Source: an uncultured Litorivicinus sp. | GTDB taxonomy: Bacteria > Pseudomonadota > Gammaproteobacteria > Pseudomonadales > Litorivicinaceae | Assembly (NCBI GenBank): GCA_902558075.1 | Contig: CACECO010000003.1 | Span: forward strand, 62,001-126,000 | Length of the DNA: 64,000 nucleotides | Direction of reading: 5' to 3' | Position numbers and translations under genes: made by a program | In this document: in pieces, positions 7,018 through 47,632 of the stretch | Layout: the number at the start of each line of letters is the position of its first letter | Numbering within the stretch: position 1 is the first letter of the stretch | Notes under the pieces: generated by a model | Databases searched by the model: none | What the model saw: the letters and a program-made list of their open reading frames with translations, nothing else | Told to the model about the DNA's origin: nothing

Positions 7018-8036
7018 AATCGTTTGACCGGGATTGAACGCTCTTTCAACACAGCATTTGAAATTCCCGCATTATTTTTCAAAAGTGCTTGCTCGGCTCG
7101 ATAGCTGGATCGAACCATTGGACCTGAGACAACTTCGAGGAACCCTCGCTCGAGTCCCCATTTGCGGTAGCGATCAAAAGCCTCTGGTGTAACATAACGA
7201 TCAACTGGCAAATGGTTGACTGTGGGTCTTAAATACTGACCAAATGTCACGATATCAACATGATGATCACGCATGTCGTCCATGGCTTGTTTAATCTCGT
7301 CCTCAGTCTCTCCGAGACCTAACATCAGACTCGTTTTTGTAACCATTTGCGGACGATATTTTTTTCCATGTGCAAGCACGGCAAGCGTTTGCAGATAGCT
7401 CGCGCGTGGGTCTCGGACTGGATGTGTGAGACGTTTTACTGTTTCAACATTTTGAGCAAAAACGTCAAGTCCTGAGTCAATAACCTTCTCGACATCAGAC
7501 ATGACTCCTTGAAAGTCAGGAGTTAATGCTTCAACAGCTGTTTCTGGGCTTCTTTGTTTAATCGCACGCACAGTCGCAGCGAAATGATTCGCTCCACCAT
7601 CATCGAGATCATCACGGTTGACGCTTGTTAGAACCACATATTTGAGGCCCATCAAGGCGACGGATTCGGCAGTATTTTTTGGCTCATCGAGATCGAGCCA
7701 TCCCTTGGGGTTTCCGGTATCAACTGCACAAAATTGGCACGCTCGCGTACAAACCGATCCCATGAGCATGATCGTCGCGGTTCCTGCACTCCAGCATTCG
7801 CCGATGTTAGGACACATGGCTTCTTCGCATACCGTTGACAATCGGTGCGTACGGACAATTTTTTTAACCTCTTGATAGCCTTCACCACCTGGGCTCACAA
7901 AGCGCAGCCATTTTGGCTTATCGCCTCGTGGTGCTTTTTCATCAGTTCGGCGTTTTTGACCATTTTTGATCGCTTTCACGCCAACATCGTTGATGATTTT
8001 ATCGCCACTTCTTGGGCGGTCTTTGTGTTCGGTCAT
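7014..8036 (-). CDS. lipA: Lipoyl synthase
   Basis: 340 residues. LipA is the radical-SAM enzyme that inserts two sulfurs into octanoyl-protein to make lipoyl cofactor. The auxiliary cluster motif C-x4-C-x5-C is at Cys70, Cys75 and Cys81; the radical SAM motif C-x3-C-x2-C is at Cys96, Cys100 and Cys103. The C-terminal family signature SSYRAE is present. It overlaps gcvP by 4 bp, so it is translated within the glycine cleavage operon. This makes sense because GcvH needs lipoyl on its lysine. A normal LipA is usually beside lipB; no lipB is seen here. Confidence 0.95.
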
Positions 8037-10864
8037 GCAGCTTCCGTTGGTTTGTCGGTGTACTCAGAAAGTCGTGGACAACTGCACACCAGATTACGGT
8101 CACCATAGACATTATCAATTCGAGCAACAGGAGGCCAATAGCGGTCGGTTTTCAACGAGTTCAACGGGAATGCGGCCTGCTGACGCGAGAACGCATGAGG
8201 CCATTGATCTGCAGTTACCGCCTCAACGGTGTAAGGAGCGTGGCGGAGAATCGAGTTGTCCGCTGATACGTTGCCGGTTTCAATTGCTGTGATTTCTTTA
8301 TGGATGGCAATCATGGCATCACAGAACCTGTCGAGTTCGCAGAGTGACTCACTTTCGGTCGGTTCGATCATCAATGTGCCGGCCACTGGCCAACTCATGG
8401 TCGGCGCATGGAACCCATAATCAATCAATCGCTTTGCAATATCGTCCACAGTCACTCCAGCGCTATCTTTGACCACTCGCGTGTCGAGAATGCATTCGTG
8501 TGCGATTAATCCCTGAGTATCTGTATACAAGATCGGATAATACAGACTTAAACGCTTGGCGATGTAGTTCGCCGATAAAATTGCGTTTTCAGTCGCACCT
8601 GTTAGGCCATCTGGACCCATCATACGGATATACATCCAGGAGATTGGCAAGATCATCGCTGAGCCGAATGGTGCCGCTGATACAGGACCTACGGGCGAGT
8701 CAGAGGGTAATTCAGGATGTCTTGGCATGAAAGGCATTAGGTGTTCAGCGACGCCAATTGGACCAACACCCGGACCACCACCACCATGCGGAATGCAGAA
8801 CGTCTTGTGCAAATTCAGATGTGATACATCAGAGCCAACCAGGCCTGGGCTTGTCAGTCCGACTTGCGCGTTGAGGTTCGCTCCATCGAGATAGATCTGC
8901 CCGCCAACAGAATGTACGCGTCGACACACTTCTTGCACATGCGTTTCAAACACGCCATGCGTCGACGGGTAGGTGATCATGAGGCACGACACCCTGGTTC
9001 CGTATTGCTCGAGTTTGGCGTTCAGATCGTCGAGATCAATATTTCCGTCTCGGTCACATCCGATGACCACTACATCAAGTCCGACCATTTGCGCGGATGC
9101 TGGATTCGTTCCATGCGCTGATGAGGGTACGAGGCAAATGGTGCGGTCGGTATCTCCTCGTGAACGATGATATGCCTGTATCGCGAGTAGTCCTGCGTAC
9201 TCACCTTGTGCACCTGAGTTTGGCTGCAGTGAAATACCGGCATAGTCGGTGATTTCAGCCAACCAGTCGTTCAGGTTTTGTATCATCTCTTGGTAACCAA
9301 GACGCTGATTGTCCGGGGCGAATGGATGAATGTTCGCAAATTCAGACCACGTTATTGGCGCCATCTCAGAGGCCGCGTTTAACTTCATCGTGCATGAACC
9401 CAAAGGAATCATTGCGCGGTCGAGGGCGAGGTCACGATCGGACAGTCTTCGTAGGTAGCGCATCATTTCGGTTTCAGAATGATGCGTATTAAACGGCTCC
9501 TGAGTCATGAAATCGGTCTGTCGTCGCAACTGCTTGGGCAGCATCACGTCACCTTCACCCAACTCAATTCCAAACACTGCGGCCAGTGTCTCGAGTTCGG
9601 CATCAGTGGATGCTTCGTCAAACGAAACCGAGACGGTCGTCGTATTCGCTTTGTGGATGTTAAATCCGCTTTTAAGCGCTTGACTGACAATTGCGTCAGC
9701 ATTAGATACCTGCACCGATACCGTATCAAAGAAGGTTTGGTTGACCATGTTGCCTTGTGCTCTGATTCCCTGCTGGAAGCGGGATGCAAGGCGATGCACG
9801 CGTTCTGCCTGTGCAGTCAAGCCCGATGGACCGTGATAGCAGGCGTAAAATCCAGCAATGTTGGCCAGTAGTACTTGTGCTGTACAAATGTTACTTGTCG
9901 CTTTTTCGCGCCGGATATGTTGCTCGCGTGTTTGCAGAGTGAGGCGAAAGGCGTCACGTCCCTCTGAGTCGATTGACTGTCCGACAAGGCGGCCGGGGAT
10001 GCTCCGTTTCAGTTTGTCAGTCACAGCAAAAAATGCCGCATGTGGCCCGCCGTTGCCCATCGGAACCCCGAAACGTTGTGTCGAGCCCAAGCAAATGTCC
10101 GCACCTAAATGTCCTGGTCCCTCCAGCAGCGTGAGACTCAAAATGTCAGCGGCGACGATCGTCAGAATGCCTTTCTCTTTGGCGTTTTGAATGATCGGTC
10201 CAAGATCAGCCACTGACCCATCGTGGCCGGTATATTGAACGATGAGGCCAAATGCATCATCGAAATCGGGAGTGTTGTGAGCATCAAACTCGATAAGTTC
10301 AAATCCGAGAGGTTCGGCGCGAGTTTTAATTACAGCAAGTGTCTGGCTGAATAAATTCGATGCCACATAAAAGCGTTTTGATTTGGATTTAGAGCTTCGC
10401 TCACAGAGTGTCATGGCTTCTGCAGCTGCAGTTCCCTCATCAAGCAGTGACGCGTTGGCAACTGCCATCCCAGTCAACTCAACGACCATTGTTTGATAAT
10501 TGAAGAGTGCCTCAAGACGACCCTGCGAAATCTCGGGTTGATAGGGTGTGTATGCCGTATACCATGCAGGATTCTCGAGCACATTTCGTTGAATCACAGC
10601 GGGTGTCAGCGTATGGTAATACCCCTGACCAATAAGCGTTCGCACTACCTCATTCTTCGAGGCAATGGCCTTGAGCTCAGCGAGCGCATCGACTTCTGAC
10701 ACTGCATTAGGAAGAGACATCCGTGTCCGTTTACGAATATTCTCTGGAACCACTTGTGCCGCTAGCTCATCCATCGACTGAAGCCCCAGTGTTTTGAGCA
10801 TTAAAGCACGGTCGTCTTCGGACAAACCAATGTGGCGGTCACGAAAAGTCTTTTCCTGATTCAC
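8033..10864 (-). CDS. gcvP: Glycine dehydrogenase (decarboxylating), P protein
   Basis: 943 residues, the full length of the single-chain P protein. It decarboxylates glycine and passes the aminomethyl group to lipoyl-GcvH. The N-terminal half starts with [12 protein letters not shown]. The C-terminal half carries the PLP lysine in [17 protein letters not shown] (~residue 687). The gene begins 12 bp after gcvH with an AGGAGGTAG-type ribosome site and overlaps lipA. Expression should follow the glycine riboswitch in front of gcvT. Confidence 0.97.
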
Positions 10865-10876
10865 TGAAACTACCTC

Positions 10877-11251
10877 CTATAACTCTTCCTGAATGAATGC
10901 TTGATAGTCAGCTTCGTCAAGCAAATCATCTAGCTCAGATGGATCAGACAAATGCATCTTGAAGAACCAACCATCATTCTCTGGATCTTCATTGACCAGC
11001 TCTGGTCGTTCTGAAAGTTCCTTATTGGATTTGATAATCGTTCCAGTGACAGGGGCATAAATGTCACTGGCTGCCTTTACCGATTCAACAACCGCCACTT
11101 CTGCACCTTGATCAGCAGACGTATCAACTTCGGGAAGTTCGACAAAGACCACATCGCCGAGTTGTTCTTGAGCATAAAAGGTGATGCCGACAGTGGCTGA
11201 ATCAATATCCATGCGGATCCATTCGTGCTCGCGTGTGTATTTAACAGTCAT
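10877..11251 (-). CDS. gcvH: Glycine cleavage system H protein
   Basis: 124 residues, normal size. GcvH carries the lipoyl arm that shuttles the aminomethyl group between P, T and L proteins. The lipoylated Lys59 sits in the motif ESVKAASDIYAPVTG. The usual HEW start pattern (TREHEWIRM) is present. It lies 20 bp after gcvT in the same operon. LipA, encoded two genes downstream, supplies its cofactor. Confidence 0.97.
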   Translation of the reverse strand: MTVKYTREHEWIRMDIDSATVGITFYAQEQLGDVVFVELPEVDTSADQGAEVAVVESVKAASDIYAPVTGTIIKSNKELSERPELVNEDPENDGWFFKMHLSDPSELDDLLDEADYQAFIQEEL

Positions 11252-11271
11252 AACAGGGTCCTATTTGTGGC

Positions 11272-12381
11272 TTACAGAGAACGTACGTAGCGCTGTTGAA
11301 CAAAGATCGGGTTACAGACAGCACACGGGAGTGCTTTGCCTCTAACCTCTGCAAATAATTTAGTACCGGGTGTACTCATGTTTTGACTGACATAACCCAT
11401 AGCAATAGGTCCTTCAAAGGTTGGTCCGAACCCACCAGAAGTGATTTCGCCAACCTCATCCCCGGCGCTGTTAGTGATTACGGTATGGTCTCGAAGTGGC
11501 GTACGACCATCCGTAGGAGCAATACCGACTCGCTTTCGAGGCGCCCCGTCATTGATCTGCTGAAGGATGATATCCGCTCCCAGAAAGCCGCCGTCTGTCT
11601 GGCGACGCTTTTGAATAGACCAGAGAAGATCGGCTTCGATGGGCGTAGTTGCCGTTGTCAGGTCGTTTCCGTAGAGACACAGACCGGTCTCCAGGCGCAA
11701 CGAATTTCTAGCGCCAAGACCTACCCAAGTGGTTTCTTCAAGTGCGGTTAATGCCTCTGCAAGCTCTTGGGCTTCTGTGTTCGCAATCGAAATTTCGTAA
11801 CCATCTTCACCTGTATAGCCGCAGCAAGACAGCGTGATGAGGTGACCATTCCAGCTGGTCTGAACTGCGCGCATAAAAACAAGGTCTCTTGCTTCCGGCA
11901 TCATCTGTGTAAGCGCATCGCGCGCTCCAGGGCCCTGCACCGCGATCAACGCATGCGCATCCAAGTAGGTCATTTGAATTGAGTCGGGCAACATCGCCTT
12001 CATATGATCCATGTCGGCCTGCTTACAGGCGCCGTTGACGACTAGTCCCCACGTGGCATCGTCCCAGCGGGTCAGCATCAAATCATCGAGGATTCCGCCA
12101 TTGTTGAGTGTCAGCTGCGAATAACGGATCTGTCCGGGTACCATCTCTTGAAGCGCGGCTGGAACCAGTTTTTCAAGCGCCTCGGTAATGCTAGGACCTT
12201 TAACCAGCAGTTGGCCCATGTGTGACACATCAAATAGTCCAACCGACTCGCGAGTATGAAGGTGTTCGCCTTTGACACCGAGGGGGTATTGAATTGGCAT
12301 CTTGTAATTAGCAAATGGAGCGAACTTCGCACCTTGCTCAGTATGAAATGATTCGAGTGCTAGCGAGTGTAGATCTGTCAT
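11272..12381 (-). CDS. gcvT: Aminomethyltransferase, glycine cleavage T protein
   Basis: 369 residues from the ATG at 12381, chosen because AAGGAG lies just upstream; an in-frame ATG at 12408 lies inside the riboswitch tail. GcvT releases ammonia and makes 5,10-methylene-THF. Family signs are GLFDVSHMGQ near the N-terminus, VQGPGARDAL, GYTGEDGYEI and the C-terminal GEITSGGFGPT. It is first in the operon. A second GcvT-fold protein, the DmdA-like one at 14015-15124, has a clearly different sequence and probably a different substrate. Confidence 0.96.
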   Translation of the reverse strand: MTDLHSLALESFHTEQGAKFAPFANYKMPIQYPLGVKGEHLHTRESVGLFDVSHMGQLLVKGPSITEALEKLVPAALQEMVPGQIRYSQLTLNNGGILDDLMLTRWDDATWGLVVNGACKQADMDHMKAMLPDSIQMTYLDAHALIAVQGPGARDALTQMMPEARDLVFMRAVQTSWNGHLITLSCCGYTGEDGYEISIANTEAQELAEALTALEETTWVGLGARNSLRLETGLCLYGNDLTTATTPIEADLLWSIQKRRQTDGGFLGADIILQQINDGAPRKRVGIAPTDGRTPLRDHTVITNSAGDEVGEITSGGFGPTFEGPIAMGYVSQNMSTPGTKLFAEVRGKALPCAVCNPIFVQQRYVRSL

Positions 12382-12409
12382 GCATGCTCCTTGCAGGCTG
12401 TTTCGCATG

Positions 12410-12575
12410 ACCCATCTGTCATTGACCTGAGAGATTCAGGATAAATCCCTTACTCCGTCGGTGAGCATAGTCAGCTGCTTTCCAGATCCTCGTGACGACG
12501 TAACGGTCCTGTTGCCTGAGAGTTTCCGGGTCGGTTGCTCCTTCGGCGGCTTACGCACTCTCCCGAGACGACGTG
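12410..12575 (-). ncRNA. Tandem glycine riboswitch upstream of gcvT
   Basis: Read on the minus strand, two aptamers lie in a row. Aptamer 1 has GGGAGAG (12558-12564), GCCGCCGAAGGAGCAA (12535-12550), CTCTCAGG (12515-12522) and AGGACCG (12504-12510). Aptamer 2 has ACCGACGGAGTAAG (~12449-12463), CTCTCAGG (12426-12433) and the closing GACAGATGGG (~12411-12420). These are the conserved core elements of the gcvT riboswitch class. The tail runs into the gcvT ribosome site, and no poly-U terminator is visible after aptamer 2. Control of translation initiation is therefore more likely than attenuation. A perfect hairpin (GTGTTAT/ATAACAC, 12575-12590) sits just before aptamer 1. Confidence 0.93.
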
Positions 12576-12888: not shown

Positions 12889-13740
12889 ATGTCAGAGCAA
12901 ATTCAATTCGCAATGCAGAACTGGTCCATCGAGTTTACTCCATCGAACAAAACAAAAATCGATGACTTCAGGCGCGTATTACCGGTTGGAACCACTGTGA
13001 ATGTCACTGCGATTCCAGGCGCGGACCCGGAGTTGATGATATCGACTATTGAACAACTCGCGACCCAAGAAATGAATCCTGTCCCTCATATTGCGGCTCG
13101 AGGTATCGCATCGATCAGTGCGCTCGAGAACATGCTTGCCTTGTACCGAGAGGTCGATGTCACCGAAATTCTCTTAATCGCCGGAGGGTATAAGTCTCCT
13201 GTTGGCATTTTTAAAAGCGCTTTCGAGGTCCTCGAGACTGGGTTATTGCAACAGGTCGGAATTCGCAAGATCGGGGTAGCCGGCCACCCTGAAGGCAGTC
13301 CGGATATCCCAGAGACAGAGTTGAAAAAAGCCCTCAAACAAAAAAATCAGTTTGCAGAAGAAACGGGAATAGCAATGTATCTGGAGACTCAGTTTTGTTT
13401 TGATGCTCAAGCCATTCTTCGTTGGGAATCTGAGATTCGAGCGGATGGTAACCAGTTACCGATTCGGGTTGGTTTAGCTGGCCCTGCTCAGTTGAAGACG
13501 CTCCTGCATTTTGCATTGATTTCTGGTGTCGGTCCGTCATTACAGTTTTTGAAAAAACAGGCACGTCACGTGACTAAATTGCTGTCAGTTCAGGATCCTT
13601 ACGATTTGATTGCTGATCTAGCACCACACATCAACGAACACTCTCCAACCCAATTGCAGTCGCTACACTTCTATTCTTTTGGTGATTTTTCGCAAACCGC
13701 AAGGTTCGCGCACGAACTTGCGATGTCTGGAACGCGATAA
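12889..13740 (+). CDS. Divergent MetF-like methylenetetrahydrofolate reductase
   Basis: 283 residues, FAD-dependent MetF fold. The start ATG follows GGAG. Compared with E. coli MetF, the catalytic Glu region is kept (SIEFTP) and so is the TQF segment (ETQFCFD). The RGD segment with the important Asp120 reads LLIAGGYKSP, with Gly instead of Asp. The AGHPEGSPDI loop is present. This set of changes matches a divergent subgroup rather than housekeeping MetF. The next gene is the DmdA-like demethylase, so the plausible job is oxidising 5-methyl-THF back to methylene-THF after demethylation. That is inferred from context. It lies head-to-head with the gcv operon. Confidence 0.75.
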   Translation: MSEQIQFAMQNWSIEFTPSNKTKIDDFRRVLPVGTTVNVTAIPGADPELMISTIEQLATQEMNPVPHIAARGIASISALENMLALYREVDVTEILLIAGGYKSPVGIFKSAFEVLETGLLQQVGIRKIGVAGHPEGSPDIPETELKKALKQKNQFAEETGIAMYLETQFCFDAQAILRWESEIRADGNQLPIRVGLAGPAQLKTLLHFALISGVGPSLQFLKKQARHVTKLLSVQDPYDLIADLAPHINEHSPTQLQSLHFYSFGDFSQTARFAHELAMSGTR

Positions 13741-14014
13741 GTGGTTTGCGTCAAGTCGCTTTAGCGAAGCATGTACCTTGGCAATGGTGGTCAAGCATCA
13801 CTCGTGAGCGAGCCAAGGCGATCGCACAGTGATGCCTACCACATATCGAACCGGCAAGAATGTTATGCATCAAACTGATTCAACTGCATTCGGGAAACAA
13901 GATTTCGACATGGACTGAGGCGAGTCAGGGGGTGCAGATTGACTTGACGTTACGATTCCGGGATAACGGTTGCTGGGGACCATTTTTAACAATAATTAGA
14001 AGAGTGTGCTTGAC
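13741..14014 (+). other. Gap between metF-like and dmdA-like genes, possible gene remnant
   Basis: 274 bp with no intact gene. One frame reads without a stop from ~13742 to a TGA near 13830 (LRQVALAKHVPWQWWSS is part of it). A short piece in another frame continues to ~13919, ending in KQDFDMD. The composition looks protein-like, so a small degraded gene is possible, but I cannot name it. The 3' part holds the promoter candidate listed separately. Confidence 0.3.
13939..13967 (+). promoter_or_regulatory. Candidate sigma-70 promoter for the dmdA-like operon
   Basis: TTGACT (13939-13944) and GATAAC (13962-13967) are separated by exactly 17 bp, 47 bp before the dmdA-like start codon. The -35 matches five of six consensus bases and the -10 four of six. 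No operator is obvious. If used, it would separate the demethylase genes from the metF-like gene transcriptionally. Confidence 0.4.
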
Positions 14015-15124
14015 ATGCCTATCCAACTTTCAGTTGGCCCGCGGGTCCGAAAGAGTCCTTTTTTCGAAGCGGCCATCCGCGACGGATTGCAAGCCGCCTC
14101 GGTCTATAACCACATGTATATGCCTACAAGTTACGGTGATCCGGTTGGAGAATATGAACGACTCATTCACGGTGTCGCGATGTGGGATGTGGGCGTCGAG
14201 CGGCAGGTTGCGCTGAAAGGCCCCGATTCTCTTGTCTTAGCGAGATTGCTGACAGGACGTAACCTTGATGATTTGACAATCGGCCATGGTAAGTATGCGC
14301 CCTTGTGTGATTTCCGAGGTCGATTGATAAACGATCCTGTGTTGTTGCAATTGGCTGATGATGAGATTTGGCTGTCCATTGCTGATCACGATATTGCATT
14401 GTGGGCAGCTGGGATTGCCGGCGCATATTCGTTGAATGTTGATGTGATCGAACCGGATGTGTCTCCTCTGGCCGTTCAGGGTCCCAAAGCTCAGGCTGTC
14501 TTAGTTGCACTCTTCGGTGATTGGATCAGTGATCTCAAATATTTCGGATTCCAAAAAACAATGCTGGGATCAATTCCGGTTATTGTTGCCCGTTCAGGTT
14601 GGTCGAAGCAGGGTGGCTACGAAATTTATTTGATGGACAGTCGATTTGGAACAGCGCTCTGGGAGCAAGTGAAAGAAGCAGGTAGGGCCTACCAGATTGG
14701 GCCTGGCGCACCTAACTACATCGAGCGGGTTGAAAGTGGATTAATCTCCTATGGTGCTGACACGGACGAGAGGAGCAATCCATTTGAACTGGGATTGGAT
14801 CGATTTATTGATCTTGAGCAATCGTCGGATTTTATCGGAAAGGATGCGCTTCTGAAGATTCGCGACCACGGCGTGAATCGACGATTCAAAGGAATTCTAA
14901 TGGATGGTCCAAAACTCATAGGGACCAACGAGCATCGATGGCAGATCAGTCAACAAGGGCGAGATGTTGGCTATGTGTCTGCGGCTGCATTCAGCCCACG
15001 ACTTGACTCGAATATTGCTGTTGGAATGTTGTCGGTCGAGGCCATGCAAACTGAAGCGCGATTCGAAGTGCATTGTGGGGATTGTGTTAGGTCAGGGATC
15101 GCAGTCGATCTACCCTTAATTTAA
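14015..15124 (+). CDS. dmdA: DMSP demethylase-like, THF-dependent methyltransferase (DmdA type)
   Basis: 369 residues from the ATG at 14015 (a GTG at 14006 is also in frame). DmdA moves a methyl group from dimethylsulfoniopropionate to THF, leaving 3-methylmercaptopropionate. It has the GcvT fold with DmdA-type signs: RVRKSPFFEAA at the N-terminus, YNHMYMPTSYG, MWDVGVERQV, WLSIADHDI, the segment EPDVSPLAVQGPKA, PNYIERVESGLISYGADT and NPFELGLDRF. It differs strongly from the true GcvT at 11272-12381. Neighbours fit a methyl-THF-producing enzyme: a MetF-like gene upstream, an acyl-CoA ligase 13 bp downstream and glyA beyond. Another substrate of this family, such as a different methylated osmolyte or ether, cannot be excluded. 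Confidence 0.7.
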   Translation: MPIQLSVGPRVRKSPFFEAAIRDGLQAASVYNHMYMPTSYGDPVGEYERLIHGVAMWDVGVERQVALKGPDSLVLARLLTGRNLDDLTIGHGKYAPLCDFRGRLINDPVLLQLADDEIWLSIADHDIALWAAGIAGAYSLNVDVIEPDVSPLAVQGPKAQAVLVALFGDWISDLKYFGFQKTMLGSIPVIVARSGWSKQGGYEIYLMDSRFGTALWEQVKEAGRAYQIGPGAPNYIERVESGLISYGADTDERSNPFELGLDRFIDLEQSSDFIGKDALLKIRDHGVNRRFKGILMDGPKLIGTNEHRWQISQQGRDVGYVSAAAFSPRLDSNIAVGMLSVEAMQTEARFEVHCGDCVRSGIAVDLPLI

Positions 15125-15137
15125 CGTCGGAGGTGTC

Positions 15138-16781
15138 ATGGCAAATATCGATCAACTCAACCAGCATATGACAAGCCCTACAGCGGCTAACTTTGTTCCC
15201 CTCAGCCCGTTATCGTTTATCAAGCGAACCGCACAGGTGTTTGGTGATCAGACGGCAACAATTTATAACGGACAACAGCAGTCGTGGCGACAGATCTACC
15301 AACGCTGTTGCGCATTTTCTGATGCACTTAGACGAAATGGGGTGGAAAAAGGCAATGTTGTCAGTGTGTTGGCATTTAATACACCTGAGATGATTGAATT
15401 GCAGTTCTCGGTCGCAATGGCCGGCGGTGTGCTCAATACCATTAATACGCGTTTGGATCCTGAGACGATCGCTGGGATTCTTGATCACGCCGAGCCAAAC
15501 ACCCTAGTGTTTGATTTTGAGTTAGGTGATGTTCTTGTCGATGCATTGTCGCGATGCACCCATCAACCAGCGCATCTGGTGGTGATTTCTTCCCCAGGCT
15601 TGGATTCGCCTGATCAGCCCACCGACGTCATCGATTATGAGGATTTTGTTGAGATGGGAGATCCAGCGGCAGCTTGGTCGTTACCGACATCAGAATGGGA
15701 TGCGTTTGGTTTGAATTACACATCAGGGACGGGTGGTCGGCCCAAGGGTGTTGTGATAAGCCATCGTGGTGCCTATTTGATGGCGATGGGGACAGTGCCT
15801 GCCTGGAATGTACCAATGCATCCGATTTATCTGTACACCGTTCCTCTATTCCACTGTAATGGTTGGGGGCACGCATGGATGAACGCGCTGGTCGCGGGAA
15901 CGATCATATGTATAAAGAAAATTGAAGCGGCCACAATTTTTGATGTCATTTCCAAGTATCGGGTGACTCATTTTGGTGGGGCGCCAGTTGTTCTGAGTCT
16001 GTTAGTCAATGCGCCACTTGAACATAAGAAGCCGTTTGATCATCCAGTGCACGTCATGACTGCTGGGGCGCCACCGCCACCGGCGATTTTGGAGCAGACC
16101 GAGCAGTTAGGCTTGGAAGTGATGCAAGTCTATGGTTTGACTGAAACTTACGGCCACATTATGCATTGTGCCTGGAATACAAGCTGGGATGCGCTTGGGT
16201 TTTCAGAGCGTGCAGAAATCAAAGCTCGTCAGGGGGTTCAGTTTACCCACACTGAGGAGGTCGAAGTCTTTGATCTTGAGCGTGGAGATCCGGTGCCCTG
16301 GGATGGTCGTTCTGAAGGTGAAATCGTGATTCGATCGAATACGGTGATGAAGGGATATCACAAAGATCCACTTGCGACGGAGGATGCGTTCAAAGATGGT
16401 TTTTTCCATTCTGGTGATTTGGCTGTGAGACATCCAGATGGATATATCGAAATCAAAGATCGATTAAAGGATGTCATTATTTCAGGCGGTGAAAATATTT
16501 CGTCAGTCGAGGTCGAAAATATGCTGTATCGGATTCCGGGTGTTGCATGTGCAGCTGTTGTCGCCAAAGAGGACGATAAATGGGGTGAAGTACCCGTTGG
16601 CTTTATTGAGTTGTCTCATGACGCCAAGCCGATTAATGAGGCTGAGGTTATCAAATTTTGTCGCCAGCATTTGGCCGGGTTTAAGACACCAAAACAGATC
16701 ATCTTCGGGGAGATACCAAAAACATCCACGGGAAAAGTTCAGAAATTTGTACTTCGTCATGAGTTGAAGCTGAACTCATGA
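15138..16781 (+). CDS. Acyl-CoA ligase, candidate methylmercaptopropionate-CoA ligase (DmdB)
   Basis: 547 residues, AMP-forming acyl/aryl-CoA synthetase. The phosphate-binding motif reads YTSGTGGRPKGVVIS (~residue 192); the usual TSGTTG has Gly for the second Thr of the TT pair. Other motifs are MQVYGLTETYG (~327), FHSGDLAVRHPDG, KDRLKDVIISGGENIS and the C-terminal STGKVQK with the catalytic Lys. It starts 13 bp after the DmdA-like gene behind a GGAGG ribosome site, so it is probably in the same operon. The obvious candidate substrate is methylmercaptopropionate, the acid product of DmdA; medium-chain fatty acid is the alternative. dmdC and dmdD are not in this window. Confidence 0.75.
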   Translation: MANIDQLNQHMTSPTAANFVPLSPLSFIKRTAQVFGDQTATIYNGQQQSWRQIYQRCCAFSDALRRNGVEKGNVVSVLAFNTPEMIELQFSVAMAGGVLNTINTRLDPETIAGILDHAEPNTLVFDFELGDVLVDALSRCTHQPAHLVVISSPGLDSPDQPTDVIDYEDFVEMGDPAAAWSLPTSEWDAFGLNYTSGTGGRPKGVVISHRGAYLMAMGTVPAWNVPMHPIYLYTVPLFHCNGWGHAWMNALVAGTIICIKKIEAATIFDVISKYRVTHFGGAPVVLSLLVNAPLEHKKPFDHPVHVMTAGAPPPPAILEQTEQLGLEVMQVYGLTETYGHIMHCAWNTSWDALGFSERAEIKARQGVQFTHTEEVEVFDLERGDPVPWDGRSEGEIVIRSNTVMKGYHKDPLATEDAFKDGFFHSGDLAVRHPDGYIEIKDRLKDVIISGGENISSVEVENMLYRIPGVACAAVVAKEDDKWGEVPVGFIELSHDAKPINEAEVIKFCRQHLAGFKTPKQIIFGEIPKTSTGKVQKFVLRHELKLNS

Positions 16782-17551
16782 AAACGCTATCTGAGTTCTC
16801 ATGGTCCGACAGTCTGTTTTGGATTGTTTTCTATGGCTTGGTTGGACTCAGTTGGTTGATCTTAATTGCCAATGAAATGGATGGGCTGTCGTCATTTTCA
16901 ACACTCATCGATTCAATCTGCGTCTCTGCTGCTGAGGCGAGCCTGAGGGAGTTAGCGGTGATGTGGGGATTGATGGTGCTGGCGATGATGTTGCCCACTT
17001 TTCATGCCCATGCGCGTATTCATCAGGATATTCGGTCAAAGGAGTCATGGCCGTCGCATACGTTTGTTCTGGTGTTGGGATTCTTGTTGATCTGGTCAAT
17101 TCTCGTGGTGATCGGTGCGTTCTCTCAACACGCATTGGCGGCCAATGATTTAATCGATTCATCTGGTCGTCAGACCTCGTTGGTCGGCAGTGCGCTGGTT
17201 TTACTATTCGCGGGCGCTTATCAGTTTTCAAGTTTGAAGCGAGCCTGTATGACTCAGTGCGCGTCACCGATGCATTATTTTTTAAAATATTGGCGTGACT
17301 ATCATATCGGAGCACTCCAAATGGGTGTGCATCTTGGTGCCCTGTGTATCGGCTGTTGTTGGGCATTAATGGCTTTAGCTTTTGTCGGGGGAACGATGAA
17401 TGTGTTTTGGATGGCGATTTTAACGGGCCTGATGATCTTTGATAAGCAGCACTATTTTAATCAGCAATGGTCGACGTCTGTTGGTTGGACGCTTATCTTT
17501 ACTGGAGCACTCGTTTTTGTTATCGCATTGACTTTTGAGGTGATCGTATGA
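16778..17551 (+). CDS. DUF2182 multi-pass membrane protein
   Basis: 257 residues with about six membrane helices. It carries the DUF2182 pattern of conserved cysteines: FSSLKRACMTQCASPMHYF in the middle, then LGALCIGCCWALM and GTMNVFWM. The family is annotated as predicted metal-binding membrane protein; function unknown. The start overlaps the ligase stop by 4 bp and the stop overlaps DUF1326 by 4 bp, so all three are translationally coupled. The usual Glu before Lys in the last motif appears as FDKQHYF. Confidence 0.75.
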   Translation: MKTLSEFSWSDSLFWIVFYGLVGLSWLILIANEMDGLSSFSTLIDSICVSAAEASLRELAVMWGLMVLAMMLPTFHAHARIHQDIRSKESWPSHTFVLVLGFLLIWSILVVIGAFSQHALAANDLIDSSGRQTSLVGSALVLLFAGAYQFSSLKRACMTQCASPMHYFLKYWRDYHIGALQMGVHLGALCIGCCWALMALAFVGGTMNVFWMAILTGLMIFDKQHYFNQQWSTSVGWTLIFTGALVFVIALTFEVIV

Positions 17552-18171
17552 ACCAGGCACTACCCAAATGGGAAATCCAAGGCGAATTGATTCTGAACTG
17601 TAATTGCACGGTGTTCTGTCCTTGTGTTGTCAGCCTCGGAGTTCATTACCCGACTGAAGGGCATTGTCAGGCTTGGCTCGGGGTTCATATCGAAAAAGGC
17701 TTTTATGACGATGTTGCCCTTGATTCATTCAATGTTGGAATGGTTCTTGATATCCCCGGTCGAATGTCGAGAGGCGATTGGAAGGTAGGTACTTTTATCG
17801 ATGACAGAGCGGGTGAGCCTGCGTTTCAGGGGCTTAGTCGTATTTTCCGTGGGGAAGCTGGAGGGACAACTCGGCTCTTTTCGATGCTTGTCAGCGAGAA
17901 CCTCGGAACAGAGCAGGCTGCGGTGGCTTTTGAACGTAAAAACGATGAGCGATTACTCACGGTAGACAAAAAAATTGTCGGCGGAGTGAAACCAATTTCA
18001 GGCCCTGATACTACGAAAGATGTGACAGTGAACAACACCAGTTATTGGATGGGTCCCGATATCACAGTGGCTCAGGCGACAAAAGGACGTGTCAGGGCCT
18101 TTGGTCGTGTGTGGGACTTTGAGGGTCGTAGCGCTGAGATTTGTCAAATCAATTGGAGTGGTCCACATTAA
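17548..18171 (+). CDS. DUF1326 protein with CxCxxxCPC motif
   Basis: 207 residues. The N-terminus carries the conserved cysteine cluster CNCTVFCPC (~residues 19-27) with a later HC pair (GHCQAW), a likely metal or redox site. There is no signal peptide or membrane segment, so it should be cytosolic. DUF1326 and DUF2182 occur side by side in many bacteria, but the function of the pair is unknown. Here they follow the DmdA-like gene and the ligase in an overlapping gene string, which links them by position to C1/sulfur metabolism. Confidence 0.75.
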   Translation: MNQALPKWEIQGELILNCNCTVFCPCVVSLGVHYPTEGHCQAWLGVHIEKGFYDDVALDSFNVGMVLDIPGRMSRGDWKVGTFIDDRAGEPAFQGLSRIFRGEAGGTTRLFSMLVSENLGTEQAAVAFERKNDERLLTVDKKIVGGVKPISGPDTTKDVTVNNTSYWMGPDITVAQATKGRVRAFGRVWDFEGRSAEICQINWSGPH

Positions 18172-18174
18172 AAA

Positions 18175-18205
18175 AAGCCGGTCGACGATCGAGTGTCGGC
18201 TTATT
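18175..18205 (+). terminator. Weak intrinsic terminator candidate after DUF1326
   Basis: AAGCCG (18175-18180) pairs with CGGCTT (18197-18202), with an inner TCGA/TCGA match, followed by TTATT. An A-run precedes it. The stem is short and the T-run broken, so termination may be partial. It lies directly after the DUF1326 stop and ~115 bp before glyA. Confidence 0.35.
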
Positions 18206-18319
18206 GGCTGAAATAAAGTTTAAATCGGCTTAAAAAATTATGGATGAAAAGTCAACGCAGGTTGCTTAGACTCCCCAGCCGACCATTTAATTGACAGACG
18301 TTCACGAAGGAGCGCTATC

Positions 18320-19573
18320 ATGTACGCAAGCACATCGACAATCCATGTGTATGATCCGGATCTCGCCATGGCCATGGCGGCCGAAACGAAGCGCCAAGAA
18401 GATCATATTGAATTGATTGCTTCCGAAAATTACGCGAGCCCCCGGGTACTCGAGGCTCAAGGTTCGGATCAAACGAATAAATATGCTGAAGGCTATCCAG
18501 GGAAACGCTACTACGGTGGTTGTGAATATGTGGACGTTGTCGAGCAACTTGCAATCGATCGAGCGAAGGCGCTATTCGGTGCTGCATACGCGAATGTCCA
18601 GCCACATGCAGGTTCGCAGGCAAATGCGGCCGCATACCTGGCATTGATGTCGGCGGGTGATACCGTGCTTGGAATGTCCTTAGCCGATGGCGGGCACCTA
18701 ACCCACGGTGCGTCAGTAAACTTCTCAGGTAAAGTCTATAATGCGGTCCAATACGGGATTGATGCGGATGGTTACTTGGACTACAACCAGCTCTCTGATC
18801 TCGCTGAAGCGCATCAGCCGAAACTGATTTTGGGTGGATTTTCTGCATACTCTCGGGTTGTTGATTGGGGAAAGATGCGGGAAATTGCTGATAATGTGGG
18901 TGCGTATTTCTTGGTTGATATGGCGCATATCGCAGGTCTCGTTGCTGCTGGGGTGTATCCATCGCCGATCCCACATGCGCATGTGGTGACAACAACAACT
19001 CACAAGACGCTTCGTGGTCCACGATCTGGACTGATTCTATCTGGCCAAGACGATGAGACCCTTCATAAGAAACTGAACTCAGCAGTCTTTCCAGGTATGC
19101 AAGGTGGACCATTGATGCATGCCATCGCCGCGAAAGCAGTCGCCTTCAAAGAGGCAATGGAGTCTGGATTCAAAACCTACCAAGAGCAGGTAGTCAAGAA
19201 TGCGCAAGTGATGGCATCAGTTTTCATCAAGCGCGGATTTAAAATTGTGTCTGGAGGGACGGACAATCACCTGATGTTGGTTGATTTGGTTGCTCAAGGC
19301 ATCACAGGTAAAGCTGCCGACGCAGCTCTCGGGGAATCACATATCACGGTGAATAAAAATGCTGTTCCGAATGATCCTCAGTCTCCATTCGTGACGTCGG
19401 GAATTCGGATTGGCACTCCTGCTGTGACAACCCGCGGATTCGTCGAAAGCGATTGCCGTGATTTGGCGGGTTTAATTTGTGACGTACTGGATAGTCTCGA
19501 CGATGAAGCGGTGAAAGCACGTGTCCGAGACGAGGTTAAAGCGATGTGTGATCGCTTGCCGGTGTACCGTTAA
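18320..19573 (+). CDS. glyA: Serine hydroxymethyltransferase
   Basis: 417 residues, full length. GlyA interconverts serine + THF and glycine + 5,10-methylene-THF using PLP. The PLP lysine is in [16 protein letters not shown] (~residue 229). Other motifs are [21 protein letters not shown] and HAGSQAN. The ATG follows a strong ribosome site (GAAGGAG). The position beside the gcv operon and the DmdA-like cluster puts three methylene-THF enzymes together. The 3' end overlaps the convergent acyltransferase gene by 38 bp. Confidence 0.97.
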
Positions 19574-47174: not shown

Positions 47175-47335
47175 CTATCCAAGAATCGGTGAAAGCCAGC
47201 ATGCATTCTCGTCAACAGCCTCGTTTCTTAATGCTGCGTAACTCGTCAGTTGGTCTTTCCCTGTCTGGCCGAGGGTGAAGTATTGTGCATCCGGGTGAGC
47301 AAAATAAAAGCCGCTCACTGAAGCTGTTGGCCACA
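47175..47335 (-). pseudogene. metH: C-terminal relic of methionine synthase (metH)
   Basis: The last ~53 codons of MetH in one frame: WPTASVSGFYFAHPDAQYF, then GQTGKDQLTSYAAL and WLSPILG before the TAG at 47175. This is the end of the S-adenosylmethionine-binding activation domain. Everything upstream in MetH is missing. The relic is joined out of frame to the metF relic near 47336, most simply by an internal deletion of a metF-metH operon. Confidence 0.8.
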
Positions 47336-47632
47336 TCGCAATGTGACAATCTGGCGGACCCCCATGCTCGAGTATTCTTCGGCGATTGAATCGATTTCCT
47401 CCTGCGGTGCGCCAACGCAGGTCAGATGCGGAACGAGCTCAAGGTTTGTTTTTGTTAACAAACTCTCAATGACCTGATGCGTGCGCTCCCGAGTGGACCC
47501 ATCAGCACTGTAGGTGATGGAGACAAATTCTGGGTTCAACGAGGCGAGTCGCTCCACAGTTTTTCATAGGCTCGCTTCGGCCTCCGCAGTCTTCGGTGGG
47601 AAAAATTCAAATGACACGCGTAGCGGGTTCAT
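47336..47632 (-). pseudogene. metF: N-terminal relic of metF with internal stop
   Basis: Starts at ATG 47632, overlapping the regulator stop by 4 bp (ATGA). The frame gives VSFEFFPPKTAEAEASL, then a TGA where MetF would have a residue such as Trp, then VERLASLNPEFVSITYSADG and PHLTCVGAPQEEIDSIAEEY, ending after RQIVTLR. About 97 codons remain. The Tyr-Ser-Ala-Asp pattern in place of TYGAGGST also looks relaxed. It cannot produce an enzyme. Confidence 0.85.

Follow-up and report, generated by a model that had tools for sequence, protein, structure and literature searches.

In the marine flow of sulfur and carbon, a major step is the demethylation of dimethylsulfoniopropionate (DMSP). A known route, which proceeds through DmdA, DmdB, DmdC and DmdD or AcuH, is that of Pelagibacter, Ruegeria, Phaeobacter and SAR92. 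Three further systems are close to the locus described here: the LigM–S6MTHFR module of strain SYK-6 (PMC12585457), the Roseobacter dmdA–acuI pair (PMC3338564) and the PpoB1–PpoB2 tyrosinase operon of Marinomonas mediterranea. The locus is a five-gene cassette (metF2, dmdA-like, CoA ligase, DUF2182 and DUF1326) at positions 12889-18171 of a 64,000-nucleotide stretch, called the window, from an uncultured Litorivicinus sp. (contig CACECO010000003.1, positions 62,001 to 126,000 of the forward strand, assembly GCA_902558075.1).

The cassette shares with the DMSP demethylation pathway a DmdA-type demethylase, standing beside a ligase of the Phaeobacter inhibens type. However, it is without dmdC and dmdD, it adds metF2 and the DUF2182–DUF1326 pair, and its DmdA lies outside the proven ones in the more careful of two trees. 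Like the SYK-6 module, it pairs a GcvT-derived, tetrahydrofolate (THF)-dependent demethylase with a homologue of methylenetetrahydrofolate reductase (MTHFR). The differences relate to the demethylase, which is DmdA-type and not LigM, to the additional ligase and DUF pair, and to the host, which retains a glycine cleavage operon, whereas SYK-6 is without one. A counterpart of the dmdA–acuI pair has been found in 13 genomes of one family, where DUF2182–DUF1326 precede dmdA and an MDR gene of the AcuI type, and a GntR gene is divergent; the passages of PMC3338564 on the pair name neither DUF family. In contrast to that arrangement, neither acuI nor a GntR gene belongs to the cassette, which ends with the DUF pair and contains metF2 and acs. 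With the PpoB1–PpoB2 operon it has the DUF2182/PpoB2 family in common, but the tyrosinase is absent and the partner of DUF2182 is DUF1326.

The five genes are read here as a self-contained cassette for harvesting the methyl groups of a methylated osmolyte, DMSP being the most likely one, and we assign this reading a probability of about 0.65. The individual genes are as follows.

12889..13740, plus strand: metF2, short MTHFR-family protein of 283 residues, probably oxidising 5-methyl-THF
14006..15124, plus strand: dmdA-like, GcvT-fold, DmdA-type THF-dependent demethylase of 372 residues
15138..16781, plus strand: acs, AMP-forming CoA ligase of the PRK08162 subfamily, a probable ligase for methylmercaptopropionate (MMPA)
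16778..17551, plus strand: DUF2182/PpoB2-family membrane protein of 257 residues, a probable copper carrier
17548..18171, plus strand: DUF1326 protein of 207 residues with a CxCxxxCPC motif and one further Cys

DMSP is the likely substrate of the DmdA-like protein, which would strip a methyl group from this algal sulfur compound into one-carbon metabolism. MetF2, working in the oxidising direction, would convert methyl-THF to methylene-THF, usable by the core GlyA and glycine cleavage (Gcv) enzymes and by other pathways; this direction is suggested by its PDB relative and by the loss of metF–metH in the window genome. The ligase may act on MMPA to give MMPA-CoA, as its recurrent position beside dmdA suggests. 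The DUF2182 membrane carrier would hand Cu(I) to the soluble, Cys-rich DUF1326 protein, a copper-handling role to which the PpoB2 kinship and the invariant residues point, and the copper need or client would be tied to DMSP demethylation because one DUF1326 subfamily accompanies dmdA.

The contiguous plus-strand genes with short gaps or overlaps, described in an earlier sequence-only reading together with the glycine cleavage operon opposite them, were found again: all six open reading frames (ORFs) from metF2 to glyA are present, separated by 265, 13, -4, -4 and 148 bp in this order, and gcvT–gcvH–gcvP is on the minus strand. The six products match the Pfam families MTHFR, GCV_T with GCV_T_C, AMP-binding, PpoB2, DUF1326 and SHMT, each above its gathering score. 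The dmdA-like gene starts with GTG, and an in-frame ATG three codons later is equally possible. Apart from ORFs overlapping them, the five cassette genes are the only ORFs of at least 100 residues between gcvT and glyA. The same reading had made glyA the sixth gene of one module and proposed a neighbourhood search for the six-gene order. The part of this proposal that stands concerns five genes. Among 22 genomes of the genus, the window genome included, a close dmdA-like gene occurs in nine (G000, G005, G008, G009, G012, G013, G017, G018 and G019), and all nine have the same five-gene order adjoining glyA, so the order is more than chance. DUF2182 matches were obtained in exactly these nine carriers. 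The orientation relative to glyA is not kept: the cassette is co-directional with it in the window genome and G009, and reversed, pointing toward gcvT and divergent from glyA, in 7/9. On the opposite side gcvT has been located in all eight carriers with enough sequence, the contig of G017 stopping earlier. In five inspected cassette-free genomes (G001, G002, G003, G015 and G020) gcvT faces glyA across 249-1034 bp, while in the cassette-free G010 gcvT was seen and no glyA lay within the stretch. By this distribution the five genes form a unit that occupies a single chromosomal site in either of two orientations. As a sixth member glyA was rejected, being a core gene that is divergent from the cassette in most carriers and faces gcvT at the five inspected sites without the cassette. 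The longest empty-site gap, the 1034 bp of G002 (L038), contains an ORF of 150 residues, perhaps another insert at the same place.

The cassette also moves as a whole. Seven flanking proteins of G009 and G019 are 93-98% identical (gcvP 96, gcvH 96, gcvT 93, glyA 94, yihG 98, esterase 98, mdh 97), whereas the five cassette proteins of these genomes are only 44-67% identical. Between G019 and G013 the cassette proteins are 94-97% identical, yet gcvP and gcvT reach 85% and 79%. Along the glyA DNA, G019 is G013-like (92-97%) over the 600 bases nearest to the cassette and beyond them G009-like (91-99%), save for a G013-like patch at 901-1050, which places a recombination breakpoint about 600 bp into glyA; on the gcvT side G019 is G009-like already in the first segment compared. 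Given these flank and cassette identities and the switch within glyA, G019 has received a complete cassette, oppositely oriented, through homologous recombination that had one of its ends in glyA.

The best PDB match of the DmdA-like protein is 3tfh (E 2e-84), labelled GcvT-like and presumably the SAR11 DmdA, and further GcvT-family structures follow at E 3e-36 or weaker. Two DmdA trees were analysed, a quick one of 105 rows and a careful one of 56 rows, from which 49 of the 105 had been removed by hand. The sequence of one carrier (L030, with ambiguous bases) is absent from both, neither contains a SAR92 or Ruegeria pomeroyi sequence, the rooting is uncertain, and 3tfh forms a long branch. 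In the quick tree the proven DmdAs and the window clade stand together in one group of 81 rows (98). In the careful tree the window protein joins G009 and the other cassette DmdAs (100/96), and the next larger group (11 rows, 100/99) adds proteins of the SAR116 type and their kin. The window protein is 36% identical to 3tfh and 40.4% to the DmdA of P. inhibens, and by these values it is comparable with the SAR92 DmdAs which restored methanethiol production in a dmdA mutant and whose identity to two proven DmdAs is 34.6-40.2% (PMC10746254).

Gene contexts of relatives were scanned by tblastn in the best 80 of 587 confirmed loci; a CoA ligase was matched in 16 of the 80 (distant matches counted), metF2 in four, and DUF2182 and DUF1326 in two each. 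All five parts occur together in one of these loci, L094 (Rhodobacter sp. UBA10365). Its metF2 stands some 2 kb upstream of the rest, from which it is separated by a gene of the corrinoid methyltransferase type and by an ORF resembling a LysR regulator.

The window CoA ligase scores 757 bits on PRK08162, above the cut-off of 677, and remains below the DmdB model PRK07008, a 3-(methylthio)propionyl-CoA ligase (288.7 vs 822 bits). The same pattern is seen for the ligase beside dmdA of P. inhibens, which reaches 773.8 bits on PRK08162 and fails PRK07008 with 313.8; the genes at that locus are an acyl-CoA dehydrogenase gene, dmdD, an AMP-binding ligase gene and dmdA. Knock-out of this dmdA (PGA1_RS19020) abolished the DMSP-dependent shortening of the lag phase (PMC11306105). 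By model score, the window ligase is of the same subfamily as the ligase next to a knock-out-proven dmdA.

The link of the pair to dmdA was traced through DUF1326. Linkage was counted from tblastn with DmdA references; the source set of a separate local dmdA profile could include GcvT matches. Searches with the window DUF1326 gave matches in 44 of 398 phylum genomes, comprising, besides the window, 23 long matches at 47-66% identity and 36 others at 35% or less, one piece of 33 residues having been dropped; all 23 close loci and 15 of the 36 distant ones were inspected. In 13 of the 23 close loci the order is a divergent GntR gene, DUF2182, DUF1326, dmdA and an MDR gene, the last matched with the Antarctobacter MDR gene and taken as acuI; the dmdA products are 74-83% identical to the Marinovum DmdA. 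One close locus has DUF2182–DUF1326–MDR with a dmdA piece and one DUF2182–DUF1326–ligase. No dmdA was found in the 15 distant loci inspected. In the class sample DUF1326 gave 45 matches in 37/369 genomes, and among 20 of these loci dmdA stands beside it in two (L185 and L194), in L194 directly after DUF1326. A tree of 70 DUF1326 sequences has one clade of 37 members (100/99) that contains every dmdA-linked sequence, the window's included. Linkage was counted in 27/37 loci inside this subfamily and 0/33 outside it, a contrast whose p values ignore relatedness (13 linked loci come from one family, with two identical DUF1326 sequences, and eight unlinked loci from one genus). Ten of the 27 linked loci (eight genus rows, L060 and L094) had been reached via dmdA searches and two plasmids via both searches; with the loci reached through dmdA left out, the counts are 15/25 and 0/33.

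The two plasmids illustrate the association with DmdAs of the bona fide type. On Marinovum plasmid pMaD9 the order is DUF2182–DUF1326–ligase–DmdA–alcohol dehydrogenase–SBP56, and the record annotates both DUF genes as involved in DMSP breakdown; the Antarctobacter plasmid has GntR and DUF2182–DUF1326–DmdA–MDR. At the dmdA locus of P. inhibens DSM 17395 no DUF pair lies within the 11 kb fetched. From these neighbourhoods, DUF2182 and DUF1326 look like real partners of DmdA-type genes.

A copper function of the pair is suggested by both proteins. The DUF2182 product, which has several hydrophobic segments, scores 167 bits on PF09948 (cut-off 28.7), a family now named PpoB2, copper chaperone. Its conserved soft-metal residues M62, M66, M70, M71, C161, C190, C193, C194, M198 and M207 are invariant in 16/16 rows, so that the window protein has both the family score and the residues expected of PpoB2/DUF2182. 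PpoB2, to which a role was assigned before any other COG5486 member had one, takes part in copper transfer to a tyrosinase (PMC2855505). The DUF1326 product, whose gene overlaps that of DUF2182 by 4 bp, as the 3' end of the ligase gene overlaps DUF2182 by 4 bp, scores 166 bits on PF07040 and has C18, C20, C24, P25, C26 and C40 invariant in 24/24 rows. An AlphaFold model of DUF1326 built from three sequences had a mean predicted local distance difference test (pLDDT) of 42 and was not used. The start of one DUF1326 homologue (L188) resembles what we take to be a twin-arginine signal. A further reason why a copper role is plausible is that SBP56 has been reported as a copper-dependent methanethiol oxidase (PMC5739008); as the client within the genus it was rejected, since SBP56 was found in 0/22 genomes. 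Literature searches on the DUF2182 and DUF1326 names returned nothing, and those on the COG and Pfam numbers only PMC2855505, within a coverage that leaves out most subscription journals. In searches on dmdA with metF, copper, SAR116 or acuI and on Marinovum DMSP, neither DUF family appears in the titles and abstract starts among the matches listed.

MetF2 scores 29.3 bits on PF02219 (cut-off 24) and is not a canonical MetF, since it attains 33.9 of the 293.7 bits of TIGR00676. Its sole PDB match is 7xg9/7xlf (E 5e-52), named 5,10-methylenetetrahydrofolate reductase, which we take to be the S6MTHFR of Sphingobium lignivorans SYK-6. The position after G99 of MetF2 is Asp in 7xg9 and canonical MetF and G, S or N in eight other alignment rows; in Escherichia coli MetF this Asp presumably lies by the flavin. 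S6MTHFR oxidises methyl-THF to methylene-THF, working beside LigM (PMC12585457), and oxidation of methyl-THF by the SYK-6 MTHFR is also reported in PMC13001107. The window itself contains a trace of the canonical genes:

47178..47632, minus strand: metF–metH operon remnant, about 99 metF codons, then the last 55 metH codons

Here metF codons 1-99 run straight into metH codons 1168-1222, with a 3-base overlap at the joint and about 4.06 kb gone relative to G009; there is also an additional in-frame stop at codon 23. In G012 most of metF is lost with a different scar, and no metH is present there. In G018 (78% complete) the sole MTHFR-family match besides MetF2 is a 36% one with stops. A clear loss of metF–metH was seen in 2/9 carriers (G000 and G012) and 0/13 non-carriers (Fisher p 0.16, relatedness ignored; some non-carrier matches are truncated, which may be due to contig ends), and a loss linked to the cassette is not claimed. 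Should the window genome (1.5 Mb, 53 contigs, listed 72% complete) hold no other metH, methyl-THF from the demethylase would be trapped unless MetF2 oxidises it, and the methyl-THF made in this organism must probably be oxidised. The window genome has one other protein of the S-methyltransferase family (PF02574, a 329-residue frame), which we assign to the BHMT or MmuM type.

Several observations weigh against DMSP harvesting by this cassette. The DmdA-like protein scores 380 bits on the NCBIfam DmdA equivalog NF009133, under its cut-off of 410, as do ten relatives at 346-391 bits, whereas the DmdAs of P. inhibens and of the Marinovum and Antarctobacter plasmids reach 600, 681 and 680. In the careful tree a 49-row group (95/97) containing the window protein excludes 3tfh and these three DmdAs. 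An acyl-CoA dehydrogenase, needed for the DmdC step, is present in 4/22 genus genomes (G005, G007, G008 and G012) and was not found in 6/9 carriers, of which G009 is 98% complete, G013 91% and the other four 56-78%. The absence of SBP56 from the genus sample adds to this, and BCCT carriers, the only uptake system searched, occur in three of the 22 genomes, none of them a cassette carrier. On these results the pathway may end with MMPA-CoA, or it may start from another compound: the same chemistry could serve another sulfonium or a betaine osmolyte, with the ligase activating the demethylated acid. We regard such a substrate as unlikely, though it deserves attention. A relative in the same wider clade, on a Marivivens plasmid, stands in a row with an AMP-binding ligase, an acyl-CoA dehydrogenase and dmdD, and the DUF2182–DUF1326 pair is common to loci with bona fide-type DmdA. 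The Trp named as a key residue for DMSP (PMC7487153) corresponds to Trp 199 of the window protein, the numbering being matched by spacing, but it is not decisive since the proven P. inhibens DmdA has Tyr at this position. Both trees place the protein far from GcvT, and by its model score and its position in them it is a sister-type DmdA and not a GcvT, while the two trees differ on whether it shares a group with the proven DmdAs. The GcvT-clade placement that the sequence-only reading had named as its own refutation did not occur, and the DmdA type is kept, although weakened by the score of 380/410 and by a careful tree that sets the protein apart from the proven DmdAs.

The place of the remaining genes can be disputed as well. 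It is rather unlikely, in our view, that the DUF pair travels as a hitch-hiker, serving metals in some general way unconnected to demethylation, although DUF1326 occurs in 37/369 genomes of the class sample and 18/20 of the loci inspected there are without dmdA. In addition, 8/23 close loci, all of one genus (L234, L235, L237-L241 and L243), have DUF2182 and no dmdA, so the pair is not confined to DMSP; at the three of them whose ORFs were read (L235, L241 and L243) the gene adjoining the pair presumably encodes a phosphatidylcholine synthase, to judge from its start sequence. Moreover, the gap between DUF1326 and dmdA measures 31-92 bp at four GntR-type loci but 508-1650 bp at the other nine, which makes a single transcript uncertain in the latter. 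Against a hitch-hiker role stand the confinement of dmdA linkage to one DUF1326 subfamily, also when loci found through dmdA are left out, and the occurrence of the pair around dmdA in several gene orders. Distinctly improbable is a cassette serving as the methyl-THF source for methionine synthesis, with MetF2 reducing or idle. DMSP methyl groups do enter methionine in P. inhibens (PMC12366255, PMC11306105), and a full canonical metF and a metH are kept in 6/9 carriers, where the methyl group could therefore also reach methionine. However, the window genome has only remnants of metF and metH and, at its 72% completeness, no MetE match, and MetF2 is 24% identical to the canonical MetF of a genus relative but 35% to 7xg9. 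Weighed together, the findings favour methyl harvesting from DMSP. Of the module proposed before, for taking methyl carbon from an algal osmolyte into one-carbon metabolism, the DmdA-type demethylase, the MetF-type enzyme and the DUF pair are retained; glyA is excluded, and most carriers gave no match to the later steps of DMSP breakdown. Its interconversion of methyl- and methylene-THF by MetF gains support in the oxidising direction from the 7xg9 match and the window deletion, and its two unknown families as extra parts are supported by the linkage of the DUF1326 subfamily (27/37 vs 0/33).

With a DmdA-type enzyme working alongside a relative of the reverse MTHFR, the principle of the SYK-6 module would reach beyond lignin to a marine osmolyte. 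The metF–metH deletion in the window makes the direction of MetF2 directly testable. The DUF1326 subfamily and DUF2182 adjoin bona fide-type dmdA in 13 genomes and two plasmids, and DmdA-like genes in other arrangements, by which two barely characterised families gain a place and a metal that can both be put to the test. A bolder reading, which we consider doubtful, is that DUF2182–DUF1326 form an unrecognised copper-dependent component of DMSP demethylation which, in hosts that lack DmdC and methanethiol oxidase, disposes of or detoxifies the sulfur product, be it methanethiol or MMPA. If so, the cassette would be a stripped-down, horizontally swapped DMSP route in which only the methyl group enters one-carbon metabolism, via a reverse MTHFR, and which has allowed some hosts to lose metF–metH.

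The core genes on both sides of the cassette are:

18320..19573, plus strand: glyA, core gene flanking the cassette, outside the unit
8033..12408, minus strand: gcvT–gcvH–gcvP, core operon for glycine cleavage, flanking the cassette on the opposite side
12494..12575, minus strand: glycine riboswitch aptamer before gcvT (Rfam RF00504, 54.8 bits)

The identity of gcvT was checked by Pfam, while gcvH and gcvP were named from sequence. The cassette is located on the glyA side of the riboswitch, which precedes gcvT in 8/8 of the relatives' loci searched. Tandem aptamers, two over the Rfam threshold, stand before gcvT in L024, L026, L036 and L037; the window has one only.

Among the relatives of the DmdA-like protein, a second clade (L031, L032 and L201) adjoins an enoyl-CoA hydratase gene and the same CoA ligase subfamily. 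In L031 and L033 of this second clade GWSSELGYE replaces GWSKQGGYE, and L201 is a conjugative Phaeobacter plasmid on which the second-clade DmdA-like gene stands beside an annotated OsmC gene. The DmdA-like gene of L034 and L121 is followed by one that encodes, as we assume from its start sequence, an O-acetylhomoserine sulfhydrylase, which could capture methanethiol into methionine; the genes after the ORF 3' of the DmdA-like gene in L049 resemble those of L034 and L121.

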